Shown here piece after piece: positions 15,354-35,656 of a stretch of DNA of 64,000 bases (position 1 is the first letter of the stretch; every line of letters starts with the position of its first letter). The stretch is from positions 496,001 to 560,000 of the forward strand of contig CP144169.1 of assembly GCA_039636785.1 (NCBI GenBank), in the 5' to 3' direction. The notes beneath the pieces were generated by a model. The model ran no database searches. It had not been told where the DNA came from and worked only from the letters and a program-made list of their open reading frames with translations. This DNA comes from Micrococcaceae bacterium Sec5.7 (GTDB lineage Bacteria > Actinomycetota > Actinomycetes > Actinomycetales > Micrococcaceae). The position numbers and the translations under genes are program-made.

Positions 15354-16658
15354 ATGTCTTCCGCTGCTCCTGCGCCCGCAATTGACCGTATCCCGCTCGG
15401 CGCGCTGCTGATCCTGGCGGCCATCGGCTTCACCGCCATCACCACCGAGCTCCTGCCGTCCGGGCTGCTCCCGCAGGTGAGCGCGGACCTCAACGTCGCG
15501 GAACCCGTGGCCGGCTACCTCACGGCCGGCTACGCTGCCATCATCGTGGCCACGGTCATTCCGGCCACCATGCTGCTGGCGCGCGTGCCCCGGAACGCCC
15601 TCCTGATCGCGCTGGTGCTCACGTTCGCAATCAGCAACGCCCTGGTGGGCCTCGTGTCCGACTTTGGCGCCGCCATGGCCGCCCGCCTGATCGGCGGCAT
15701 CGCCCACGGCCTGCTCTGGTCCACCATGGCGCCGTTCGTGGCAAGGATTGTCCCGGCGCCCAAAGTGGGCAAGGCCCTTGCCATTGTGTTCAGCGGCAAC
15801 AGCCTGGGCCTGGCCATCGGCGCACCGGTGGGAACGGCACTCGGCGGTTTGCTTGGCTGGCGCGCCTCGTTCCTGAGCCTCGCCGGCTCCGGCGTTGTCC
15901 TGGCGCTGCTGGCCGTGTGGCTGCTGCCCAGTGTGCGGCGGATCCCGGATGCCAAACGCCCCTCCCTGCGCAAGGCCGTCGCCCAGCCCGGGGTGAAATC
16001 CGTCGCCATTGCCTGGCCGTTGCTGCTGATGGCCCACTTCGCGCTGTTCACCTACATCGCGCCGTTCATCCGCGCAGCCGGCCTGCCGGACAGCAGCATC
16101 ACACTCTCCCTGACCGTCCTTGGCGTCGCCGGCCTGGTGGGCATCTGGTTTGCCGGAATCACCGTGGATTCGCGGCCGCGCCGTTCGCTCCTGATCACGA
16201 CGGCGGCAATCGCCGCATCGATGCTTCTGTTGCCCGTCGCCGGGGTCACCATCCCCGGCGCCATGGTGCTGATGGCCGTCTGGGGCGCAGGGCTGGGTGC
16301 GATCGGCATCTACAACCAGTCCGCCATCCTGCGTGCAGGCCGGGACTACAAGGAAGCCGCCAACGGCCTCACCGTGCTGACGATCCAGATCGGCATCACC
16401 ATCGGCGCGGTCTACGGAGCGGCCGCCCTCACCACCGCGGGACCGCTTTTGGTGCCCGTGGCCGCAGCCGTGCCCGTCGTCGTCGCATTCTTCATCGTGC
16501 TGGCCGGCCGCAAGCATGCCTACCCGCACGGCCCCCTGGAACCCAGCCCCGGGAAGACCGGCCACAGCGGGCGCAAGCCCGATGCCGCGTCCACTCAGCC
16601 GACCACGCGGAAACTCCCCGAGTCCCCCTCAGCCGGGGACAGCTCTTCGTCCACGTGA
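15354..16658 (+). CDS. MFS transporter (sugar-efflux / AraJ-like)
   Basis: A 434-residue major facilitator with about 12 membrane helices: IPLGALLILAAIGFTAITTE opens helix 1, the motif A region is RVPRNALLIALVL, then GGIAHGLLWSTMAPFVARIV and GAPVGTALGGLLGWRASFL, typical of the AraJ/SotB-type drug and sugar efflux group (the motif C-like GAPVGTALGG is clear). ATG at 15354 is chosen because the protein then starts just before helix 1; GTG at 15294 would add 20 residues. The hydrophilic C-terminus overlaps the convergent acylphosphatase gene by 64 bases. Confidence 0.87.
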   Translation: MSSAAPAPAIDRIPLGALLILAAIGFTAITTELLPSGLLPQVSADLNVAEPVAGYLTAGYAAIIVATVIPATMLLARVPRNALLIALVLTFAISNALVGLVSDFGAAMAARLIGGIAHGLLWSTMAPFVARIVPAPKVGKALAIVFSGNSLGLAIGAPVGTALGGLLGWRASFLSLAGSGVVLALLAVWLLPSVRRIPDAKRPSLRKAVAQPGVKSVAIAWPLLLMAHFALFTYIAPFIRAAGLPDSSITLSLTVLGVAGLVGIWFAGITVDSRPRRSLLITTAAIAASMLLLPVAGVTIPGAMVLMAVWGAGLGAIGIYNQSAILRAGRDYKEAANGLTVLTIQIGITIGAVYGAAALTTAGPLLVPVAAAVPVVVAFFIVLAGRKHAYPHGPLEPSPGKTGHSGRKPDAASTQPTTRKLPESPSAGDSSSST

Positions 16659-16897
16659 GCCACCCGGCCTGGGGCATCGGAGCTGAGCCAGCGCCGGAAT
16701 TCGATGATGACCGGCTGCGGACCCTCGGCAACCACGGCGACCGAGCCGTCGTCGTCGTTCCTCACAGAACCCGTCAATCCCAGCTCGTCGGCCTTCCGTG
16801 CGGTCCAGTAGCGGAACCCGACACCCTGGACAACGCCCGTGACGCGGGCCTTCAGGCGGACGTTCGCCGCTGAGTCCTGATCTGAGTATTCAGCCAT
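16595..16897 (-). CDS. Acylphosphatase
   Basis: A 100-residue enzyme hydrolysing acyl phosphates. The catalytic Arg is in VVQGVGFRYWT and the catalytic Asn in LTGSVRNDDDGSVAVVAEG, both in place; IEFRRWLSSDAPGRVAHVDE completes the fold. The size is normal. The 3' end overlaps the MFS gene on the other strand. It is divergent from the alpha-glucosidase gene. Confidence 0.95.
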   Translation of the reverse strand: MAEYSDQDSAANVRLKARVTGVVQGVGFRYWTARKADELGLTGSVRNDDDGSVAVVAEGPQPVIIEFRRWLSSDAPGRVAHVDEELSPAEGDSGSFRVVG

Positions 16898-17032
16898 GCT
16901 CCCAATCTAGCGCCGGCGGAATCATCGCGCACGGGGATCACGGGCGCCCTTCCCTGCCTGCCGCATCTGGTCAATAATCGAACCGAGCTCCATCATCAAA
17001 CTGCGTGCAAGCACCGAAGGAGAGTCAGCCCC

Positions 17033-18841
17033 ATGACCACCAATGCGGGGTCCGCCAGCCCGTACCCCACCCAGGAATCTTCGGACACCGAGGACGAGCT
17101 GACCCCCGACCCGGGCTGGTTCCGGAGCGCGGTGGTCTACCAGATCTATCCCCGCAGTTTCGCCGATTCCGACGGCGACGGCATCGGCGACCTCCCCGGC
17201 ATCATCAGCAAGCTGGACTATCTGCACAAGCTGGGGGTCGACGTCCTCTGGCTGTCCCCCGTCTATACCTCGCCGCAGGACGACAACGGGTACGACATCA
17301 GCAACTACCGTGACGTGGACCCCATCTTCGGCACCCTTGAGGACCTCCGGGAGCTCACCGACGGTCTGCACTCGCGGGGCATGAAGCTGGTCATGGACCT
17401 GGTTGTGAACCATACCTCGGACGAGCACCCGTGGTTCGCGGAATCGCGCTCCTCCAAGGACAGCCCCAAACGCGACTGGTACTGGTGGCGGCCGCCGCGG
17501 GATGGGATGGAACCCGGGACGCCAGGGGCAGAACCCAACAATTGGGGCTCGGCCTTCTCCGGCCCGGCATGGCACTACGACGAGGCCACCGGCGAGTACT
17601 ACCTCCACTTGTTCTCCAGGAAACAGCCGGACCTGAACTGGGAGAACCCGGTGGTGAGGGCCGCCGTTTACGACATGATGAACTGGTGGCTGGACCGCGG
17701 GGTGGACGGCTTCCGCATGGACGTCATCAACTTCATCTCCAAGGACACCTCCCTCCCTGACGGATCCAGGGCTGAGGGCAAGCTTTTCGGCGACGGCAGC
17801 CCGCACTACCTGTCCGGTCCCCGCATCCACGAGTTCCTCCACGAGATGCACCAGGAGGTCTTCGCCGGCCGGGACAAGCCGCTGCTCACCGTGGGCGAGA
17901 TGCCCGGCGTCACCGTGGAGGACGCGGTGCTCTTCACCGATCCGGCCCGGCACGAGGTGGACATGGTGTTCCAGTTCGAGCACGTGGCGCTGGACCAGGA
18001 GCGCGGCAACAAGTGGCAGCCGAAGAAGCTGCTGCTAACGGATCTGAAAAGGTCCCTGGGCCGCTGGCAGGACGGCCTGGCCGAACACGGCTGGAACAGC
18101 CTCTACTGGGGCAACCACGACCAGGCCCGTGCGGTGTCCCGTTTCGGCGACGACGGACACTACCGCGAGCTGTCGGCCAAAATGCTGGCGGGCATCCTGC
18201 ACCTGCACCGCGGAACACCCTATGTGTACCAGGGCGAGGAACTGGGCATGACCAATATGAGCTTCGGGGCGATCAGCGACTACCGCGACATTGAAGTCCT
18301 GAACCATCACCGCGAAGCCACCACGCACCTGGGCCACACCGACGCCGAGGTCCTCGCCGCCCTGGCACCCTTGAACCGCGACAACGCCCGCACCCCCGTG
18401 CAGTGGGATGCGAGCCGCCACGCAGGATTCACCACCGGCGCCCCGTGGATCGCCGTGAACCCGAACGCCAACCACATCAACGCAGGCGCCCAGGCGGATG
18501 ACCCCGACTCCGTATTCAGCTTTTACCGGGCGGTCATTGCCCTGCGCCACTCGGACCCTGTGGTCTCCGACGGCGACTTCACCATGCTGCTGCCTGAGGA
18601 CGAACACACCTACGCGTTCCAGCGCTCCTTGACGGGTTCCGGGCTGCTGGTCTTTGGAAACTTCTCGGGACAGGACCACACGGTGGACCTCGAGGGGGCT
18701 GGACTGGCAGGCAACGGGCTGGCGCACTACGAACTCGTCCTGGGCAACTATCCCGCCGGTGATTCTCCGGACGCCGTCCGCGGGCTGCTGCTGCGGCCGT
18801 GGGAGCTGAAGGTTTTCCGCACCACCAGAACAGCTACGTAG
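17033..18841 (+). CDS. GH13 alpha-glucosidase / oligo-1,6-glucosidase
   Basis: A 602-residue cytoplasmic glycoside hydrolase family 13 enzyme. Conserved regions in order: VVYQIYPRSFADSDGDGIGD (calcium/region VI), LVMDLVVNHTSDEHPWF (region I), GVDGFRMDVINFISKD (nucleophile Asp, region II), LLTVGEMPGV (acid/base Glu, region III) and NSLYWGNHDQARAVSRFG (region IV). The QPDLNWENP loop is typical of the alpha-glucosidase/isomaltase subfamily. AAGGAGAG sits just upstream of the ATG. No signal peptide. It releases glucose from maltose- or isomaltose-type sugars. A short Pro-rich gene follows after 10 bases. Confidence 0.95.
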   Translation: MTTNAGSASPYPTQESSDTEDELTPDPGWFRSAVVYQIYPRSFADSDGDGIGDLPGIISKLDYLHKLGVDVLWLSPVYTSPQDDNGYDISNYRDVDPIFGTLEDLRELTDGLHSRGMKLVMDLVVNHTSDEHPWFAESRSSKDSPKRDWYWWRPPRDGMEPGTPGAEPNNWGSAFSGPAWHYDEATGEYYLHLFSRKQPDLNWENPVVRAAVYDMMNWWLDRGVDGFRMDVINFISKDTSLPDGSRAEGKLFGDGSPHYLSGPRIHEFLHEMHQEVFAGRDKPLLTVGEMPGVTVEDAVLFTDPARHEVDMVFQFEHVALDQERGNKWQPKKLLLTDLKRSLGRWQDGLAEHGWNSLYWGNHDQARAVSRFGDDGHYRELSAKMLAGILHLHRGTPYVYQGEELGMTNMSFGAISDYRDIEVLNHHREATTHLGHTDAEVLAALAPLNRDNARTPVQWDASRHAGFTTGAPWIAVNPNANHINAGAQADDPDSVFSFYRAVIALRHSDPVVSDGDFTMLLPEDEHTYAFQRSLTGSGLLVFGNFSGQDHTVDLEGAGLAGNGLAHYELVLGNYPAGDSPDAVRGLLLRPWELKVFRTTRTAT

Positions 18842-18851
18842 GGAGTACAAG

Positions 18852-19037
18852 ATGACCATTCCGCCAACCCGCGAGCCCGACCCGTTTCCGCCTGAGCCGG
18901 GGCCCACGCCGGGCTCTCCGGATCCCACGAGTCCGTATCCGCCCGGCCCGGACCCTGATCCGGCACCCGGTCCTGGCCCGTTGCCTATTCCTGATCCCGG
19001 TCCCGTGCGCCCGAATCCGGACCCCACCCGGTTCTAG
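18852..19037 (+). CDS. Proline-rich 61-residue protein
   Basis: A small frame starts 10 bases after the alpha-glucosidase stop, with TAGGGAG as a ribosome site. It encodes an almost pure Pro/Asp/Gly peptide (PDPFPPEPGPTPGSPDPTSP, then PGPDPDPAPGPGPLPIPDPG) ending PNPDPTRF. It has no signal peptide or membrane segment and should be disordered and acidic. Its spacing and ribosome site suggest it is translated with the glucosidase. The function is unknown. Part of it could be a fortuitous GC-rich frame. Confidence 0.5.
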   Translation: MTIPPTREPDPFPPEPGPTPGSPDPTSPYPPGPDPDPAPGPGPLPIPDPGPVRPNPDPTRF

Positions 19038-19079
19038 GGCGTGGGGAAACCGACGCTGGGTCTCGCTCCCCGCCAGCCC

Positions 19080-19142
19080 CGGCCGTCTCGGCCGCAGGCT
19101 CACTCAGGAAAGCCGGCACCCGGCCGTCGTGGCCGCAGGCTC
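19080..19142. repeat. Imperfect 22-bp direct repeat downstream of the Pro-rich gene
   Basis: Two 22-base copies (19080-19101 and 19121-19142), each running CGGCCGTC-two variable bases-GGCCGCAGGCTC, are separated by 19 bases. They lie in the 115-base gap between the Pro-rich gene and the convergent X25 gene. Each holds a small GGCC-rich inverted repeat, so they could form weak terminator stems. Confidence 0.5.
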
Positions 19143-19152
19143 GACCACCAGG

Positions 19153-20061
19153 TCAGTTGACAGTGATGTCCCGGGTCCGGTGGTTGTAGATGACGGTGAC
19201 GCTGCCGCCGTCGTGGTGCAGTTCATGGTTGGCGCCATCAAAAGCACCGAATGCGCCGTAGTTCTCTTCCCACGCCCTGTTGAGTGCGATCTTGAAGGTG
19301 TAGTAACCGGCCGGCAGATCAGCGCTTAGTTTCCAGAGCTGATCCAGGACGTCCAATTCCATCTGGGCTTCGTCGTGCTTCGGATTCCAGTTCTCGGGCG
19401 CGCCGAGCAGCGTGTTGAAGTCACCCACGATTGCGACGGCGCCAGGCTGGTCAATGGTCTCGACGGCAGGAACCTCAGCCTGGGCGGACTTCGGCGTGGC
19501 CTTCCGCGTGCGCACAGCCTTGGTAACCGGCTTGGCTGCTTCTTCGACGAGCTCGACAGCCTTGTCCAAAGCCTTGTCCACGGCCTTGGCCGCCCTGGAC
19601 ATTACCTTTTCCGCCGTCTTCGGCTTCGCAGCAGGCTCCGCTGCGGGAGTCTTGGCGGCGGCCTTCTTCGCACGCGTCACAGGCTTCGCCGGCGGGGCCG
19701 TCGGAAGGGGAGTGCTGGCTGGGACCGGAGTACCGGCGTCGAGCGCTGCTGCAAACGTGGCCGCATCCGGGAACGCGACAGTGGCGCGCAGTCCCTCCTC
19801 CGGGATGGCCCAGCCGGAGCGGCCCTTGACCAGCCAGCCGGCCTTGACCAGTTTCGCCGTGGCCGTGGTGAGGGTCTTGTGGCCGCGCGGAATTCCTCCG
19901 CTGAGCAGCTCGGCCTCATGATCGTTGAACGGCACCCGCTCGGTTGCTTCTGCAAGCACAGCGCCGGCGTTCAAGATCTCCCCCTGCAACACCCCCTCTG
20001 CAAGAATATCCAGCACAGCCTTCAGACGAAGGTTGGTGTTCTCTGCAGTGTTCGTGCCCAT
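19153..20061 (-). CDS. Winged-helix / Lys-Ala linker / pullulanase X25-domain protein
   Basis: A 302-residue protein in three parts. Residues 1-105 look like a winged helix of the Mrr-N type (RLKAVLDILAEGVLQGEI, PRGHKTLTTATAKLVKAGWL). Residues 115-205 are a Lys/Ala/Pro-rich tract resembling histone H1 tails (AKKAAAKTPAAEPAAKPKTA, DKALDKAVELVEEAAKPVTK). Residues 210-302 match the X25 starch-module fold known from pullulanases (VAIVGDFNTLLGAPENWNP, LPAGYYTFKIALNRAWEENY, VTVIYNHRTRDITVN). AAGGAGA precedes the ATG. There is no signal peptide, so a carbohydrate-type module is placed in the cytoplasm on a basic, probably DNA-binding, protein. The alpha-glucosidase gene nearby makes a link to alpha-glucan or glycogen possible. 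The joint function is unknown. Confidence 0.8.
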   Translation of the reverse strand: MGTNTAENTNLRLKAVLDILAEGVLQGEILNAGAVLAEATERVPFNDHEAELLSGGIPRGHKTLTTATAKLVKAGWLVKGRSGWAIPEEGLRATVAFPDAATFAAALDAGTPVPASTPLPTAPPAKPVTRAKKAAAKTPAAEPAAKPKTAEKVMSRAAKAVDKALDKAVELVEEAAKPVTKAVRTRKATPKSAQAEVPAVETIDQPGAVAIVGDFNTLLGAPENWNPKHDEAQMELDVLDQLWKLSADLPAGYYTFKIALNRAWEENYGAFGAFDGANHELHHDGGSVTVIYNHRTRDITVN

Positions 20062-20510
20062 GGGTCTCCTTCAGAAGCGATTGTTCCAACTGAAGTGTGC
20101 CAAGAAAGTGTTAAATCCCGCGACTAGAAACGGTTAATTTTGTGTGTTTTGACCGACTGTGACGAAGATTACAGCGGAAGTGAGTCGGGGGTCTCGGATA
20201 CGGAGGATCTGATGGTGCCCGCTAGTCCCCCGAGGTGCCATCCAACCGTCGGCGCTGCAGGCCCTCATGCACAGTCGCGTCCGGCCGGCAGATCTCATCC
20301 GGCAGCCCTGGAAAGCGCGCACCGCCCGGGTTTGGTGGCGCCGAAACGCGATCGATCTTTACCTCCGTACGTGTCGACGGTCAGCGCCACTTCGGCTTCC
20401 GTCCACGGCTTCCCGGTCTCCCCCAGCTGCATGGGACCAGGCTACCCGGACTTATCCACACGCCGCCGCAAGCGCGGGCGCCTGCTTCCGGCATCAGCTA
20501 GCTTTGACTG
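20062..20510. other. 449-bp gap with little content
   Basis: Between the divergent X25-domain gene and the next hypothetical gene I see the AT-rich leader of the X25 gene (20062-20160) and one possible protein remnant (20367-20432, minus strand). No RNA gene, repeat or strong hairpin was recognised in the rest. Confidence 0.5.
20367..20432 (-). pseudogene. Possible N-terminal remnant of a DUF3883/HNH-type protein
   Basis: From an ATG at 20432 the first 22 codons read MQLGETGKPWTEAEVALTVD and then TY, close to the opening WT-DEVELTVDTYF seen in actinobacterial DUF3883 or HNH nuclease-like proteins. The similarity then stops. This may be the stump of a deleted gene. The evidence is one short motif from memory. 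Confidence 0.3.
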
Positions 20511-21224
20511 GTGGGGAAAAAACGCGAGGCAACAGACGACGATCAGTGGACAGCCCGGGACCAGGCCTTGTGGACGACGGCGGAACTCGCAGTTCTCGTT
20601 TCCCGCGGTCAACTTGAGCAACGCCAGGCAATTCCTGTTCCCTTCGCCATGCGCCTTGGCGGAACTGAGGAAAGGATCGTCGCGCACGGCGGCTTTCAGC
20701 TGCTGGCCTGGACCTCCCCCGGCGACGGTTCATACATGCATAACAACGGAATGATGCTCGCCACCGGGAAAGGCGGACTCGCCATGATGGCTGGGTTTGC
20801 CGCTGTGCAGGCGGCAGGGAACGCCTCCCGGCGCAGGCAGGCAGCTGACATGGCCCAGCCACGCTGGATACCGATCGACCACGGAACCTTGGCTGTGGGG
20901 AACTTCGGCTTCTACCTGCACTCACCCACCGGCATCCATGCCTGGGCGTGGGATGGCATCCATATGGCGTCCTTGACCGGACCCGGGCAGCTGACCATCG
21001 ATGGCATGTCAGAGAACGGCCCGGTGAAATGGATTCTGAATTCCCACTGGGCCGAGCTCGTTTTCATGCTGTGGGCGTCCGTCTGCAATCCGACCCATCC
21101 GCAGATGACGGGGCGGACCTGGTTGCCCCAGGACTGGCTAACCAAGGCAATGGTGTTCGCCATGAGCAACCAGGGCTATCCGTCGCACACCGCGTTCCAG
21201 GAAGTCGTGCGCGAACTGCGGTAG
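20511..21224 (+). CDS. Hypothetical protein
   Basis: A 237-residue soluble protein starting at GTG (20511), with no recognised domain. The body has a beta-rich core (RIVAHGGFQLLAWTSPGDGS, GTLAVGNFGFYLHSPTGIHA, SLTGPGQLTIDGMSENGPVK) and a helical end (TWLPQDWLTKAMVFAMSNQG). A Gly/Met-rich segment (GKGGLAMMAGFAAVQAAGNA) could be a membrane-associated or buried helix. Codon use and length support a real gene. The beta-rich core recalls PH-like or SHOCT-associated domains, but no specific call is justified. Confidence 0.6.
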   Translation: MGKKREATDDDQWTARDQALWTTAELAVLVSRGQLEQRQAIPVPFAMRLGGTEERIVAHGGFQLLAWTSPGDGSYMHNNGMMLATGKGGLAMMAGFAAVQAAGNASRRRQAADMAQPRWIPIDHGTLAVGNFGFYLHSPTGIHAWAWDGIHMASLTGPGQLTIDGMSENGPVKWILNSHWAELVFMLWASVCNPTHPQMTGRTWLPQDWLTKAMVFAMSNQGYPSHTAFQEVVRELR

Positions 21225-21349
21225 CAGCCATCCCGGATCCGCTGTTCCCGCGTCGCAGCAAGGGAATCCAGCTCGGCATTGCCCGCACGCACCAGCGATC
21301 TAGCACACCGTGGCCCTTGAGGGCACGGTCGGATCTGCGATCGGCGTGA

Positions 21350-22411
21350 TCAGTCTTTGTTGGAGAGCGTCCATCCGGGCGGGAGGGATTCAACGCTTTG
21401 CCACTCCGAGGACGGTGCCGCCTGGCTAAGAACATCGGCGAGCCAATATGTTTCATCAGGATTCCACCCCGCCAGCACAGTGCCTGAGTTCCCGACGGAC
21501 AGGGCTCGCCCGGCCGTACTGAGGTAGCCCACGGTTGTGAGGTGCACGGCGTCGTAGTCGGAGGCCACGGCGGACCAGTCCGGCATCAGCCAGGTCCTGT
21601 CAATGCCTGTTGTTCGCCACCAATCGTGGCGCTTTGAAAGGCTGACATTCATGGGATAGTTGGCCACCAGGTCCGTCCATGCCGTTGGCCCCGTTATTTC
21701 GTAGATACGGGATCCGGCCGCGGGTTTGAGTGGCCACACCCGGGCCCGCTTCCAACCGAGACTGTCTTCGACGAACATCAACTTTGCGGCCCCCAGCCCG
21801 CCCAGGCTCCTGGTTGTCGTCACGAGGTCAGATAGGGCCGGAGTCGACCACCATTGCCCGCTCCAAGGAGCGGCGGGGTCCCTCGGACGCTCCGCCGCCT
21901 GACGTTCATCGGCCAATGTCGCGTCTCTCCACCTGCCCAGGTTCCCTGCGGCGCCGGTGAGGCCGGGCGGTTTGAGCTTCTGTTCATCGGTCCACTGCAC
22001 GTAGCATTGCCGGTCCGGAGCCATGAGGCTTGACCACCACGATGCAGCCACAGTTTTGCAAAGCTCATCGGCAACGGGCCTGAGAGCCGCATGGACGGAC
22101 GGCAGCACGAGCAAAGCATCCGTCTCGTCGGGCTCCTGCCAGTAGCGGGCGGCATCAACTGCCTCCGCGAGTCCGGCCAGCAGTTCATGATCACCGGCCG
22201 ACGCGGCCGCTGCCATTGAGTCAGAGCGGCCCAACGCTTCGGTGAGGTCATCCAGAAGACCTGCATCTCCGGGCGACATGGCAGAGCGGATGGCCAGTGT
22301 CCACATTTCGGCTCGCGCAGACGTGAGAACGCTCAAGCAGAAGCGCCGGCCTCTCGGACCACTCAACAGATCATCACCAATCGCCCCCACGCCCATGACC
22401 CGAGCATACAA
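21350..22411 (-). CDS. Hypothetical protein
   Basis: A protein of 348 to 353 residues (ATG at 22411 or 22396) with no signal peptide and no recognised domain. It is Trp-rich (SGQWWSTPALSDLVTTTRSL, YPMNVSLSKRHDWWRTTGID, TWLMPDWSAVASDYDAVHLT). The C-terminal part is beta-rich and ends DETYWLADVLSQAAPSSEWQ. The pattern recalls conserved hypothetical proteins of Arthrobacter, but the function is unknown. It lies convergent with 20511-21224 and 37 bases upstream-side of the adenine deaminase stop, on the same strand. Confidence 0.65.
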   Translation of the reverse strand: MYARVMGVGAIGDDLLSGPRGRRFCLSVLTSARAEMWTLAIRSAMSPGDAGLLDDLTEALGRSDSMAAAASAGDHELLAGLAEAVDAARYWQEPDETDALLVLPSVHAALRPVADELCKTVAASWWSSLMAPDRQCYVQWTDEQKLKPPGLTGAAGNLGRWRDATLADERQAAERPRDPAAPWSGQWWSTPALSDLVTTTRSLGGLGAAKLMFVEDSLGWKRARVWPLKPAAGSRIYEITGPTAWTDLVANYPMNVSLSKRHDWWRTTGIDRTWLMPDWSAVASDYDAVHLTTVGYLSTAGRALSVGNSGTVLAGWNPDETYWLADVLSQAAPSSEWQSVESLPPGWTLSNKD

Positions 22412-22448
22412 GGGAGCTAAGGCCAGGCGTCTGCAACCACCGGCGCGC

Positions 22449-23504
22449 TCAGCCCCCGGACTGCGCCAATTCCTTCAGCAGCTCGGCCTTGCGTTCCTCG
22501 CTGGCGAACGATGACCGGATGGAGTTCGCTGCCAGGCGGACCCGGTCGAATTCGGACAGGCCAAGCACCGACTCCAGTTGTGCGAAGTTGTCGTCCACGT
22601 ACCCGCCAAAGTACGCGGGATCGTCCGAGTTCACGCACACGTTCAGTCCTGCGGCCAGCATCGCCGGCAGCGGGTGCTCAGCCATGGTATCCACGGCCCG
22701 CAGCCGGACGTTGGATAGCGGGCACACGGTCAGCGGCACCAGCTCCGCCACCAGCCGCTCCACCAGGACAGCATCTTCCATGCACCTGATGCCGTGGTCG
22801 ATCCGCTCCACGCCCAGTACGTCCAGCGCCTCGGAAATATACGACGGCGGGCCCTCCTCGCCGGCATGCGCGATCCTCCGCAATCCAGCGTCGCGCGCAC
22901 GCGCGAACAGCCGCTCGAACTTTGCCGGCGGGTTGCCCACCTCAGCCGAATCCAGCCCGATCCCGGCTATCGGGGCATCCATGGCCAACAGCTGCTCCAG
23001 GACTTCCAGCGCCGATTCCTCGGACAGGTCCCGCAGGAACGCCGCGATCAGCAACGTGGACACGCCAAAGTCCTCCAGCGAGGTAGCCAGCACCGAGGCC
23101 ACACCGTTCATGCACGTCGCCAGCGAGACGCCCCTGGACAGATGAGCCTGCGGATCCACCATGATCTCCGCATGCCGCACCCCCGCCGCAGAAGCCCGCG
23201 CCAGGTACGCCCGCGTCATGTCCGCGAAGTCCTCTTCCGTCTGCAGCACCGCCATGTTGGCGTAGTACAGGTCCAGGAAGGACTGCAGATCCGTGAAGTT
23301 GTACCGCGCCCTCAGCTCATCCAGCCCCGCATACGGCAGCGTGATCCCGTTGCGTTCGGCCAGTTCGAAAATCAGCTCCGGCTCCAGCGTCCCCTCGATA
23401 TGCAGGTGCAGTTCCGCCACCGGAAGCATTCCCGGCACGGTTACGCCGTCCGGATCCGGGACTGAAAGCGGCACCGCAGCGCCGTCGTCGTCGTACGTTT
23501 TCAT
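22449..23504 (-). CDS. Adenine deaminase (adenosine/AMP deaminase superfamily)
   Basis: A 351-residue metal-dependent amidohydrolase. Metal ligands are in LHLHIEGTLEPELIFELAER; substrate and catalytic residues are in AGIGLDSAEVG, IAHAGEEGPPSYISEAL (Glu of HAGEE), RIDHGIRCMED, VCPLSNVRL and VNSDDPAYFGGYVDDNF. The HIEGTLEP and SDDPAYFGGY motifs favour the adenine aminohydrolase (Aah1-type) subgroup over adenosine deaminase. The reaction is adenine to hypoxanthine in purine salvage. ATG at 23504 is chosen because the conserved domain starts 30 residues later; longer starts add Arg-rich sequence of no family character. Confidence 0.88.
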   Translation of the reverse strand: MKTYDDDGAAVPLSVPDPDGVTVPGMLPVAELHLHIEGTLEPELIFELAERNGITLPYAGLDELRARYNFTDLQSFLDLYYANMAVLQTEEDFADMTRAYLARASAAGVRHAEIMVDPQAHLSRGVSLATCMNGVASVLATSLEDFGVSTLLIAAFLRDLSEESALEVLEQLLAMDAPIAGIGLDSAEVGNPPAKFERLFARARDAGLRRIAHAGEEGPPSYISEALDVLGVERIDHGIRCMEDAVLVERLVAELVPLTVCPLSNVRLRAVDTMAEHPLPAMLAAGLNVCVNSDDPAYFGGYVDDNFAQLESVLGLSEFDRVRLAANSIRSSFASEERKAELLKELAQSGG

Positions 23505-23756
23505 CTGGCAAGGATAAGCACCCCGGCCGGCTGCACGCCACAGCCCGGGCCACAATCCAGCCACGGCCATGAATCTCGATTTGATAGCGGCAGCAGAGTG
23601 TCTTAGCGTGGAAGGCATGCCCGATCATCGGGCACACGAATGCCCGGTGCTGCCTCCACCAGAACTGCCCGGCCGGCAGACACCGCAGAATGACCTCTAT
23701 TCGTCAGGGGCGGGCAGTGGCGCGATAACGTCCGGGGACGGACCGAGCGCAGGTGA

Positions 23757-24473
<717 letters not shown>

Positions 24474-24563
24474 CGTCATTGCGACGCCAACAACTTGGCG
24501 CAGGATACTGATAGGCAGAGCCACAGCTGTTCAGCGTTCCAGGAACCTGCGCTAAATGAACGA

Positions 24564-24599
24564 CGCCGGAGGGCCCCGCACTGCTGGGGCACTCCGGCG
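24564..24599 (+). terminator. Hairpin terminator after the Rpf gene
   Basis: CGCCGGAG-GGCCCC pairs with GGGGC-A-CTCCGGCG around a short loop (24564-24599), followed by TTGTGTTT. It ends the Rpf transcript about 90 bases after its stop. Confidence 0.8.
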
Positions 24600-24639
24600 T
24601 TGTGTTTAACGTCCTGAGTGTTGTGTTTAAGGTCTGAGT
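24599..24639. repeat. Tandem duplication of about 20 bp next to the IS701 element
   Basis: GTTGTGTTTAACGTCCTGAG and GTTGTGTTTAAGGTCTGAG lie end to end (24599-24619, 24620-24639) just after the terminator and 14 bases before the IS701 target duplication. Confidence 0.6.
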
Positions 24640-24658: not shown

Positions 24659-24868
24659 CTACAGTCGCATTTGTAGGGTTGAGTTTCGGGCCCGGTAGTG
24701 GTGTCGTTTGGCGGTTTGTTGGTGTTTTCGGCGCCAGCGGGAACGCCCGAGGGTATGTTCGCGGCCGGGAAGCCGTGCCCAGATCAGGTGGGTGAGCAGG
24801 TGCCTGATCTCGGGCAGGGTAAGGGCTATGAGCTCGCCGTCGCCGGGATGAGGGCCCCCTTTTTTGAC
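24659..24868 (-). other. C-terminal part of the IS701 transposase in the -1 frame
   Basis: Continues the transposase with KKGGPHPGDGELIALTLPEI, then RHLLTHLIWARLPGREHTLG and a basic tail (SRWRRKHQQTAKRHHYRARN). Such tails are usual in IS701 transposases. It has no start codon that would make it an independent gene at the junction; translation depends on the frameshift at 24859-24865. Confidence 0.7.
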
Positions 24869-25992
24869 CGGGTGACGGTCAGGAAGGCGTGGGCGAGCAT
24901 GGACAGGGTGATGTGCCGGTACCAGCCTGTCCATTGCCTGACCTGGTAGTGATCCAGCCCGGTTTCGCCTTTGGAGGTCTGGAAGGTTTCCTCGATCGCC
25001 CACCGGGCGCCCGCGACGCGGGCGAGTTCACCCAGGCCGATGCGTTTCGGTCCGTGGCAGATGTAGTAGGCCACGTCCGTCGGATCGGCCAGGGAGCGGC
25101 GGGCCAGGAGCCAGTGCTCGCTTTTCGGGTCGTTGCGGCCGTTGATCCGGGCCCTGGCCCACGCATATCGACGGTCCCCTTTGGTGCCCAGGCCGGCGGA
25201 TCTGGTGCGCCAGGCCCGGCCGGAGAGGGACGCGATCAGCTCATCGGCACGGTGCTCGGTCCCCAGGGCGCCGGTCTTGGCGATGACGCGCTGGTTCATT
25301 GGCACCGCGAGGACATAGGAGACGCCGCGGTCCTCCAGGGATTTACGTAGCTTGGCGTGCTGGCCGTAGACGGCGTCGCCGGTCACCCAGGCCGCGGGCA
25401 CGCCCGCGTCCAGGGCTCGGATAATCATGGTGATGGCCAGTTCAGGCTTCGTGGCGAAGGCACGCTCTTCGGGGATGCCGGCGCCCATGCACCGCTCCCG
25501 GTCATCGGTCCAGGCCTTGGGCAGGTACAGTTCCCGATCCAGAAAGGTCCGCCCCGCCGGTGTCGAATAGGTCAGGAAAACACCGATCTGCGAGTTCTCG
25601 ATCCGCCCCGCCGTCCCGGAATACTGCCGGGCCACCCCGGCTGACCGGGCCCCTTTCTTCAGGAAGCCTGTTTCATCCACGATAAGCACCCCGTCATCGG
25701 AGCCGAGATGCTTCACGACGTAGGAGCGGAGGTCATCACGCACCGCGTCCGGGTCCCAGTCGGTGCTCGAGAGCAGCCGCTGCATCCGGTCCGGGATTAC
25801 CTGCCCGGCCCGTTCCGAGAGTGTCCAGGAATTCTTGCGCTCCTCGGACGAGAGCAGCCCCTTCAGATATGCCACCGCGTTCTCCCGCGGCTCCGACCTG
25901 GCAAACCGGCCACCGATCAGCTCCCGGATTTCCTCGAGCCCATCCGCCCACTCCTGCACCTCAGCCACACAAATATCATCGCTCACCGCCAA
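24826..25992 (-). CDS. IS701-family transposase, main frame
   Basis: 388 codons of a DDE transposase: MAVSDDICVAEVQEWADGLE start, VAYLKGLLSSEERKNSWTL, the first catalytic Asp in GVLIVDETGFLKKGARSAGV, the second in PAAWVTGDAVYGQHAKLR, and the Glu in ARWAIEETFQTSKGETGLDH. It stops after SKKGALIPATASS. The normal C-terminus of the family (PGDGELIALTLPEIRHLL and on) is present in the -1 frame (24659-24868). The two frames meet at an in-frame A-AAA-AAG heptamer (complement of 24859-24865), so a full-length product of about 446 residues would need a -1 shift. This could be programmed or an inactivating indel. Confidence 0.88.
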   Translation of the reverse strand: MAVSDDICVAEVQEWADGLEEIRELIGGRFARSEPRENAVAYLKGLLSSEERKNSWTLSERAGQVIPDRMQRLLSSTDWDPDAVRDDLRSYVVKHLGSDDGVLIVDETGFLKKGARSAGVARQYSGTAGRIENSQIGVFLTYSTPAGRTFLDRELYLPKAWTDDRERCMGAGIPEERAFATKPELAITMIIRALDAGVPAAWVTGDAVYGQHAKLRKSLEDRGVSYVLAVPMNQRVIAKTGALGTEHRADELIASLSGRAWRTRSAGLGTKGDRRYAWARARINGRNDPKSEHWLLARRSLADPTDVAYYICHGPKRIGLGELARVAGARWAIEETFQTSKGETGLDHYQVRQWTGWYRHITLSMLAHAFLTVTRSKKGALIPATASS

Positions 25993-32988: not shown

Positions 32989-33265
32989 GGGCCGGCCCCC
33001 CGCGCTCAGCGTCGTCGCGGCACATGGCCGCGCCGCATCCAGGCCTGGCGCGAGGTGAACGAGATGCCCGACCGCGAGCTGATGCGCGGCGGCCGCTGGT
33101 TGGTCTGACGCCCCGGCCGGGCCCGACGATCAGGTAGACAGCGGACCGTTGCAGCGACCGCGCCGACGAAGGAGAATCAGACGTACTGCTCGAAGCTGGT
33201 CAGATGGAGCCAGGCGACGCCGACGGAGACCGCGAAGGCGGCCCCGCGTAACAGATGGAGAGACG

Positions 33266-35656
<2,391 letters not shown>

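Follow-up and report, generated by a model that had tools for sequence, protein, structure and literature searches.

Does a bacterial protein that joins a winged helix to an X25 module of the kind found in alpha-glucan enzymes represent a real and maintained combination, and, if so, what could it do inside the cell? The question is raised by a gene of Micrococcaceae bacterium Sec5.7, located on the minus strand at positions 19153..20061 of the window (the whole 64,000-nucleotide stretch of contig CP144169.1 analysed here), for which an earlier note, made from the sequence alone, had proposed a cytoplasmic link between DNA and an alpha-glucan.

A winged helix and an X25 module in one protein

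The gene is an open reading frame of 302 aa with an ATG start, and its product starts with an Mrr_N-like winged helix and ends with an X25 module (PF22058), the two being separated by a low-complexity linker. The fusion put forward in the earlier note is real: Pfam, phmmer and the structural model identify the X25 half, and the model and the similarity to Mrr_N the winged helix. Only 3 open codons precede the ATG (the full open frame on the minus strand has 305 codons), leaving no room for a signal peptide, just as had been claimed. Neither Pfam, searched to E 1, nor PADLOC, searched to E 0.01, gave a nuclease domain in the protein, and Pfam detected no GH13 catalytic domain, so that the protein is not of the secreted amylolytic enzyme type. 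The whole protein has a net charge of −3 and a pI of 6.2. Searches of its own genome (4.40 Mb, two contigs) with the protein (E threshold of 1) and with the X25 family (E threshold of 1e-5) each recovered this gene and no other. Structure prediction, which the note had suggested as a check, recovered both the winged helix and the X25 fold; the full-length AlphaFold2 model has a mean pLDDT of 64.3, with values below 50 in the linker and at residues 53-57, 216-231 and 264-277.

The winged helix covers residues 1-97 (19771..20061, minus strand), with the recognition helix predicted at approximately residues 59-74 and the wing at approximately residues 77-86, based on the model and on similarity to Mrr_N. 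Modelled alone, residues 1-120 reached a mean pLDDT of 86.5 and a pTM of 0.80 and displayed the helix and wing pattern of a winged helix. The Pfam Mrr_N profile (PF14338) matched each of the 7 members scanned with an E value of 10 or lower, the lowest being 1.8e-6. Two homologues, L038 and L040, scored 25.6 and 19.7 bits; the window domain itself scored 18.2 bits (E 0.0028), under the curated cut-off of 29.5, and the domain is described here as Mrr_N-like only. In a structure comparison with VIA-align, winged helices made up much of the match list, with Z values of 7-8; they include the DNA-binding NadR, PadR, IdeR and Hel308, as well as cullin WHB and Brr2, which do not bind DNA or are not known for it. 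Foldseek with the N-domain model gave nothing under E 0.001 and a sequence search of the PDB nothing useful, so the grounds for the assignment are the model, the VIA-align comparison and the similarity to Mrr_N, which together bear out the N-terminal winged helix of the earlier note.

Z values of 7-8 are common for this fold and do not decide function; the sequence is more telling. A profile of the N domain matched 13 of the 396 genomes searched in the phylum at E up to 0.01, and its 2 best matches outside the genus, L077 and L078, are restriction proteins that combine Mrr_N with Mrr_cat. The same profile matched proteins of 709-728 codons in 5 genomes of the family, and the 3 of these that were scanned (L133, L134 and L135, approximately 720 aa, from Micrococcaceae) carry Mrr_N and AAA_5 matches. 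For L133, the best PADLOC match is REase_II, which runs across the AAA part.

The C-terminal module (residues 205-302; 19156..19449, minus strand) proved to be an X25 module, as the note had held. Residues 209-297 match PF22058 at E 2.7e-20 with 72.7 bits, well above the curated cut-off of 27, and a phmmer search returned the pullulanase of B. acidopullulyticus (2wan; E 1.6e-9). A failure to match X25 profiles, which the note had named as grounds for refutation, thus did not arise. The X25 beta-sandwich is recovered in the model, in which residues 205-302 superimpose on 2wan with a Z of 10.8 and an rmsd of 2.1 over 84 aligned residues (VIA-align), followed by Amy703 (8jn0, Z 10.1), Sca5 (7rpy, 9.1), SusF (4fe9, 9.1) and SusE (4fem, 7.8). 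The term "X25" does not occur in the available portion of the Chem Rev review on alpha-glucans.

Conserved heads, a drifting linker and a probable cytoplasmic setting

In Sca5, maltotriose is contacted by W620, W661 and K654 (7rpy paper), and mutation of the W661 equivalent, W481 of Sas20d2, is reported in the available text of that paper to abolish binding. A profile built from 5 modules of the present family and 12 enzyme-borne actinobacterial modules matched Sca5 at E 2.1e-6 over 2 repeats, single repeats being weak matches (i-Evalues of 0.05 and 0.1). In the second repeat, which has the i-Evalue of 0.1 when taken alone, W225 (codon 19387..19389, minus strand), K257 and W264 (codon 19270..19272, minus strand) align with W620, K654 and W661 of X25-2b, using an offset of 477 for the Sca5 numbering that was worked out in this analysis; the aligned tryptophan pair lies 41 residues apart, matching the W620-W661 spacing, and the aligned lysine fits K654. 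N684 and N687 of Sca5 are not covered by this alignment. In the first repeat, W509 lies ahead of the aligned stretch and W555 is placed opposite Y268, not W264. The loops bearing W225 and W264 are among the parts of the model with a pLDDT below 50. W225, K257 and W264 are each kept in 75 of 75 homologues (L039 left out), and these 3 positions are the likely alpha-glucan contact residues of the module.

The winged helix is likewise conserved. R12, R59, K73 and K79 are present in all 75 homologues, position 62 is K or R in all 75, and position 81 is R in 73. These invariant basic residues lie where winged helices usually contact DNA. In the homologue alignment, the majority residue accounts for a mean fraction of 0.80 in the winged helix and 0.78 in the X25 module, compared with 0.42 in the linker.

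The linker (residues 117-204; 19450..19713, minus strand) is a Lys/Ala/Pro-rich tract of low complexity, neither the charge nor the length of which is conserved. The 88 residues include 14 Lys and 9 acidic residues, giving a net charge of +9, or +8 if the boundary is set at 118-204; the Lys/Ala tract of the earlier note is thus present, but its description as histone H1-like is too strong for a mildly basic segment. Among 76 distinct homologues, including the window protein, the net charge of the linker ranges from −20 to +15 and its length from 0 to 123 residues, with 3 proteins (L039, L040 and L103) having no linker at all. In a set of 74 homologues, compiled after L039, L107 and L041 had been dropped, 51 linkers have a net charge of at least +2 and were classed as basic, 15 with −3 or lower count as acidic, and 8 are neutral. 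On a tree of 51 rows (23 near-copies of the 74 left out; midpoint root only), the charge label requires 4 changes, 2 of which are forced by well-supported branches. Since the tract does not stay basic among the homologues and is strongly acidic in some, non-specific DNA binding through it is not general, and we reject it as a general DNA-binding part of proteins in many of which it is acidic, neutral or missing. Judging from these sequences, what evolution keeps is 2 globular heads on a free string. One of the dropped homologues, L107 (G499:C1:477099-477439), has its N domain split over 2 reading frames and looks like a broken gene.

Cysteine is wholly absent from 73 of the 76 distinct family proteins, that of the window included. 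By contrast, 2 cysteines are found in each of the 14 X25 modules encoded by 6 actinobacterial genes of the amylase/pullulanase type (L109-L114), which were chosen because they bear X25. All 6 genes encode an alpha-amylase catalytic domain and 3 encode further pullulanase domains; by eye, 4 (L110-L113) start with a signal-like hydrophobic stretch, L109 is truncated at its start and L114 has no clear one. Among the matches listed in an order-wide search, X25 outside the family sits in open frames of more than 900 codons. The lack of both a signal peptide and the cysteine pair fits a cytoplasmic protein, and members of the family are, to judge by these features, apparently cytoplasmic.

Both halves of the protein were matched in 36 of the 37 genomes searched in the genus, its own included (the exception is G033), which indicates that the combination is not a passing fusion. 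The 10 homologous loci with names all bear the label Arthrobacter. At the level of the family, the N-domain profile matches 127 of 295 genomes, 119 of which are counted as carrying the gene by these matches after setting aside 8 genomes with only matches at E 3e-11 or worse. A second, diverged protein of the winged-helix/X25 type is encoded in G589 (L137:1033-1797, minus strand), with E values of 2.8e-8 for the N domain and 3e-10 for X25 and with the WKENYG motif kept. Among 64 genomes picked to cover the genera, glgC was found above the cut-off in all 27 genomes with the gene and in 22 of the 37 without it (Fisher p 6e-5). This difference counts in favour of the linker function proposed below, with kinship and genome size as confounders.

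Neighbouring genes

The earlier note had drawn attention to an alpha-glucosidase gene just upstream. A GH13 alpha-glucosidase-type gene is indeed next door (17033..18841, plus strand), but it is convergent and lies on the 3' side of the winged-helix/X25 gene. Furthermore, tblastn detected no homologue of the GH13 gene at any of 30 homologous loci (sets of 10 and 20, 28 of them distinct, with L089 and L105 repeating L037 and L038), each covered by flanks of 4-6 kb that are in some cases cut short by a contig end. We thus consider the GH13 gene to be an incidental neighbour rather than part of the system. The 6 other neighbours scanned in the window gave no alpha-glucan family match; those identified include an acylphosphatase and an adenosine deaminase. 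Of the homologous loci in the set of 10, 6 also carry acylphosphatase and helicase genes, and adenosine deaminase is likewise present in 6; in L040 (5989-7643), the adenosine deaminase gene is directly downstream of the winged-helix/X25 gene and on the same strand, and it is close in L103 as well. Elsewhere in the window, a proline-rich open frame of 61 codons (18852-19037, plus strand) separates the GH13 gene from the winged-helix/X25 gene, a transposase with a DDE_5 domain is encoded at 24826-25992 (minus strand), and the gene at 33149-35656 (plus strand) encodes an ABC ATPase with a weak, sub-cut-off DnaJ-type zinc motif, which we take to be UvrA-like.

Possible functions and comparison with known systems

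The idea of a cytoplasmic protein uniting a DNA-binding-type with an alpha-glucan-type domain is upheld by the 2 domains, the retained contact residues and the missing cysteine pair, whereas the histone tract and the GH13 link that had accompanied it are lost. We tentatively favour, as the best explanation, a 2-headed cytoplasmic linker between DNA and alpha-glucan, although our confidence in it falls somewhat short of even. The Mrr_N-like winged helix would bind DNA, W225, W264 and K257 of the X25 module would hold the alpha-1,4-glucan chains of intracellular glycogen, and a flexible linker of free length would join the heads, so that the position of glycogen would be coupled to that of DNA. 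That the protein attaches to DNA, to glycogen and to both together is inferred. In its simplest form, such a protein would be a tether of glycogen to the nucleoid, akin to PhaF and AlgP for PHA and polyphosphate granules. The linker, which can be as short as 0 or as long as 123 residues, makes allostery between the heads unlikely, with either bridging or titration by glycogen being more likely; the retention of the likely contact residues in both heads, despite the drift of the linker, favours the same 2 options. The tether is ranked first and a titrated regulator second because the tether needs nothing else. A more specific version is possible but doubtful, namely, that this is the first glycogen-to-chromosome linker, built from a DNA reader of the restriction type and a starch-binding module of the pullulanase type, with which Micrococcaceae hold glycogen to the nucleoid or spread it along it and thereby share, at division, either the carbon store or the mechanical push of glycogen on the chromosome.

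Among the rivals, a transcription factor titrated by glycogen is the one that we would consider next, even if we think it unlikely. The winged helix would act on few operators, perhaps including its own promoter, and abundant glycogen would keep the protein on the polymer through X25 and off the DNA, so that expression would follow the store. The invariance of the recognition-helix and wing residues is in line with such a factor, and so is the region 5' of the gene: approximately 70 bp (20098..20166 in the window, minus strand) are conserved within the genus in an alignment of 52 upstream regions (49 distinct), and this element may be a promoter or an operator. Its 28-bp pattern, with up to 3 mismatches, occurs as exactly 1 site in 17 of 24 genomes, ending approximately 70 bp before the gene, and at no other gene in any of the 24 (a reversed control pattern gave 0 matches), as autoregulation could produce. 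The same exclusivity speaks against a wider regulator, since a second site was found nowhere in the 24 genomes and no regulon is seen, and we rejected the element as a regulon signal; in 7 of the genomes, including that of the window, the copy of which is too diverged, the pattern was not matched at all. A possible dyad operator was likewise rejected, the arms GGTCA/TWACC being present in just 33 of the 52 upstream regions. In 24 homologues from other groups, the upstream sequence matched the 16-bp core at no more than 11 of 16 positions; 2 loci from other genera, L092 and L094, partly keep the element by eye. The element was also considered as a riboswitch and discarded, with RNAalifold yielding no structure (energy 0); Rfam at gathering scores gave no match in window positions 16500-24600.

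Compared with either bridging or titration, an adaptor without a DNA role, in which the winged helix binds proteins or RNA and the product associates with glycogen, strikes us as rather improbable. The winged-helix fold also occurs in domains that do not act on DNA, cullin WHB being one, and in the helicase Brr2, and the net charge of the N domain is near zero (−2 in the window); both points favour such an adaptor. However, the best sequence relatives outside the family are the N domains of restriction proteins, with further ones inside the family, and the invariant basic residues occupy positions generally used for DNA contact.

The protein could also be a fusion with an unrelated role in which X25 is a relic that has lost its ligand. 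In the available text of the 7rpy paper, the Sca5 X25 modules taken singly do not bind maltooligosaccharides and the affinity of SusF modules is quoted as approximately 300 uM; a lone module may thus bind poorly. In the solved or enzyme-borne cases considered here, X25 is often in tandem. Such a relic would hardly be expected to retain W225, K257 and W264 throughout the homologues while the linker drifts, and we regard this explanation as quite improbable. Least credible by far is a defence factor, in which an Mrr_N-type reader of modified DNA would be combined with an X25 module recognising glucosylated phage DNA: Mrr_N-like domains do occur on restriction proteins, but PADLOC gave no match at E up to 0.01, a nuclease domain is absent, the gene is near-universal in the genus, its identified neighbours include acylphosphatase and adenosine deaminase, and the ligands for which X25 is known are alpha-1,4-glucan chains.

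In the open-licence literature, which was the scope of our search, with subscription papers beyond it, we recognised no published description of a winged-helix/X25 protein. The X25 module resembles those of the BaPul pullulanase (2wan), Sca5/Sas20 (7rpy), SusE and SusF in sequence and fold and, in the case of 7rpy, in the Trp/Lys ligand positions. Those proteins, however, act as enzymes or as scaffolds on the surface and frequently bear X25 in tandem, whereas here a single module is found without a catalytic domain or a signal peptide; compared with the enzyme-borne X25 modules of actinobacteria, the window protein also lacks the cysteine pair. The N domain is similar in sequence and in its predicted winged-helix fold to Mrr-type and AAA_5-type restriction proteins, from which the window protein differs in having no nuclease or ATPase domain, a sub-cut-off Mrr_N match and a near-universal presence in the genus. 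An alpha-glucan-type domain combined with a DNA-binding domain is also known from the plant beta-amylase-like transcription factors BAM7 and BAM8, which are eukaryotic and nuclear and the domains of which are unrelated to the winged helix and X25.

In E. coli, glycogen condensates displace the nucleoid and skew division, according to the available text of PMC12706056. Nucleoid linkers are described for PHA and polyphosphate granules in the available parts of PMC13052382 and PMC9239181, and the word "glycogen" does not appear in the available part of the former, a 2025 review of organelle positioning. As presented in those parts of the 2 sources, PhaF, PhaM, PhaH and AlgP each carry 1 store head and 1 DNA head per protein, an arrangement that the window protein would share. 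The available text of PMC9239181 gives net charges of +55 for AlgP and +35 for PhaF, compared with −3 for the window protein as a whole and approximately +8 for its linker, which is therefore no counterpart of a long, strongly basic H1-like tail. The domains of PhaF, PhaM, PhaH and AlgP are wholly different from those of the window protein, and the store in the present case would be glycogen; one conserved protein with a DNA-type and a glycogen-type head would allow a direct test of whether some bacteria control the relation between glycogen and the nucleoid.
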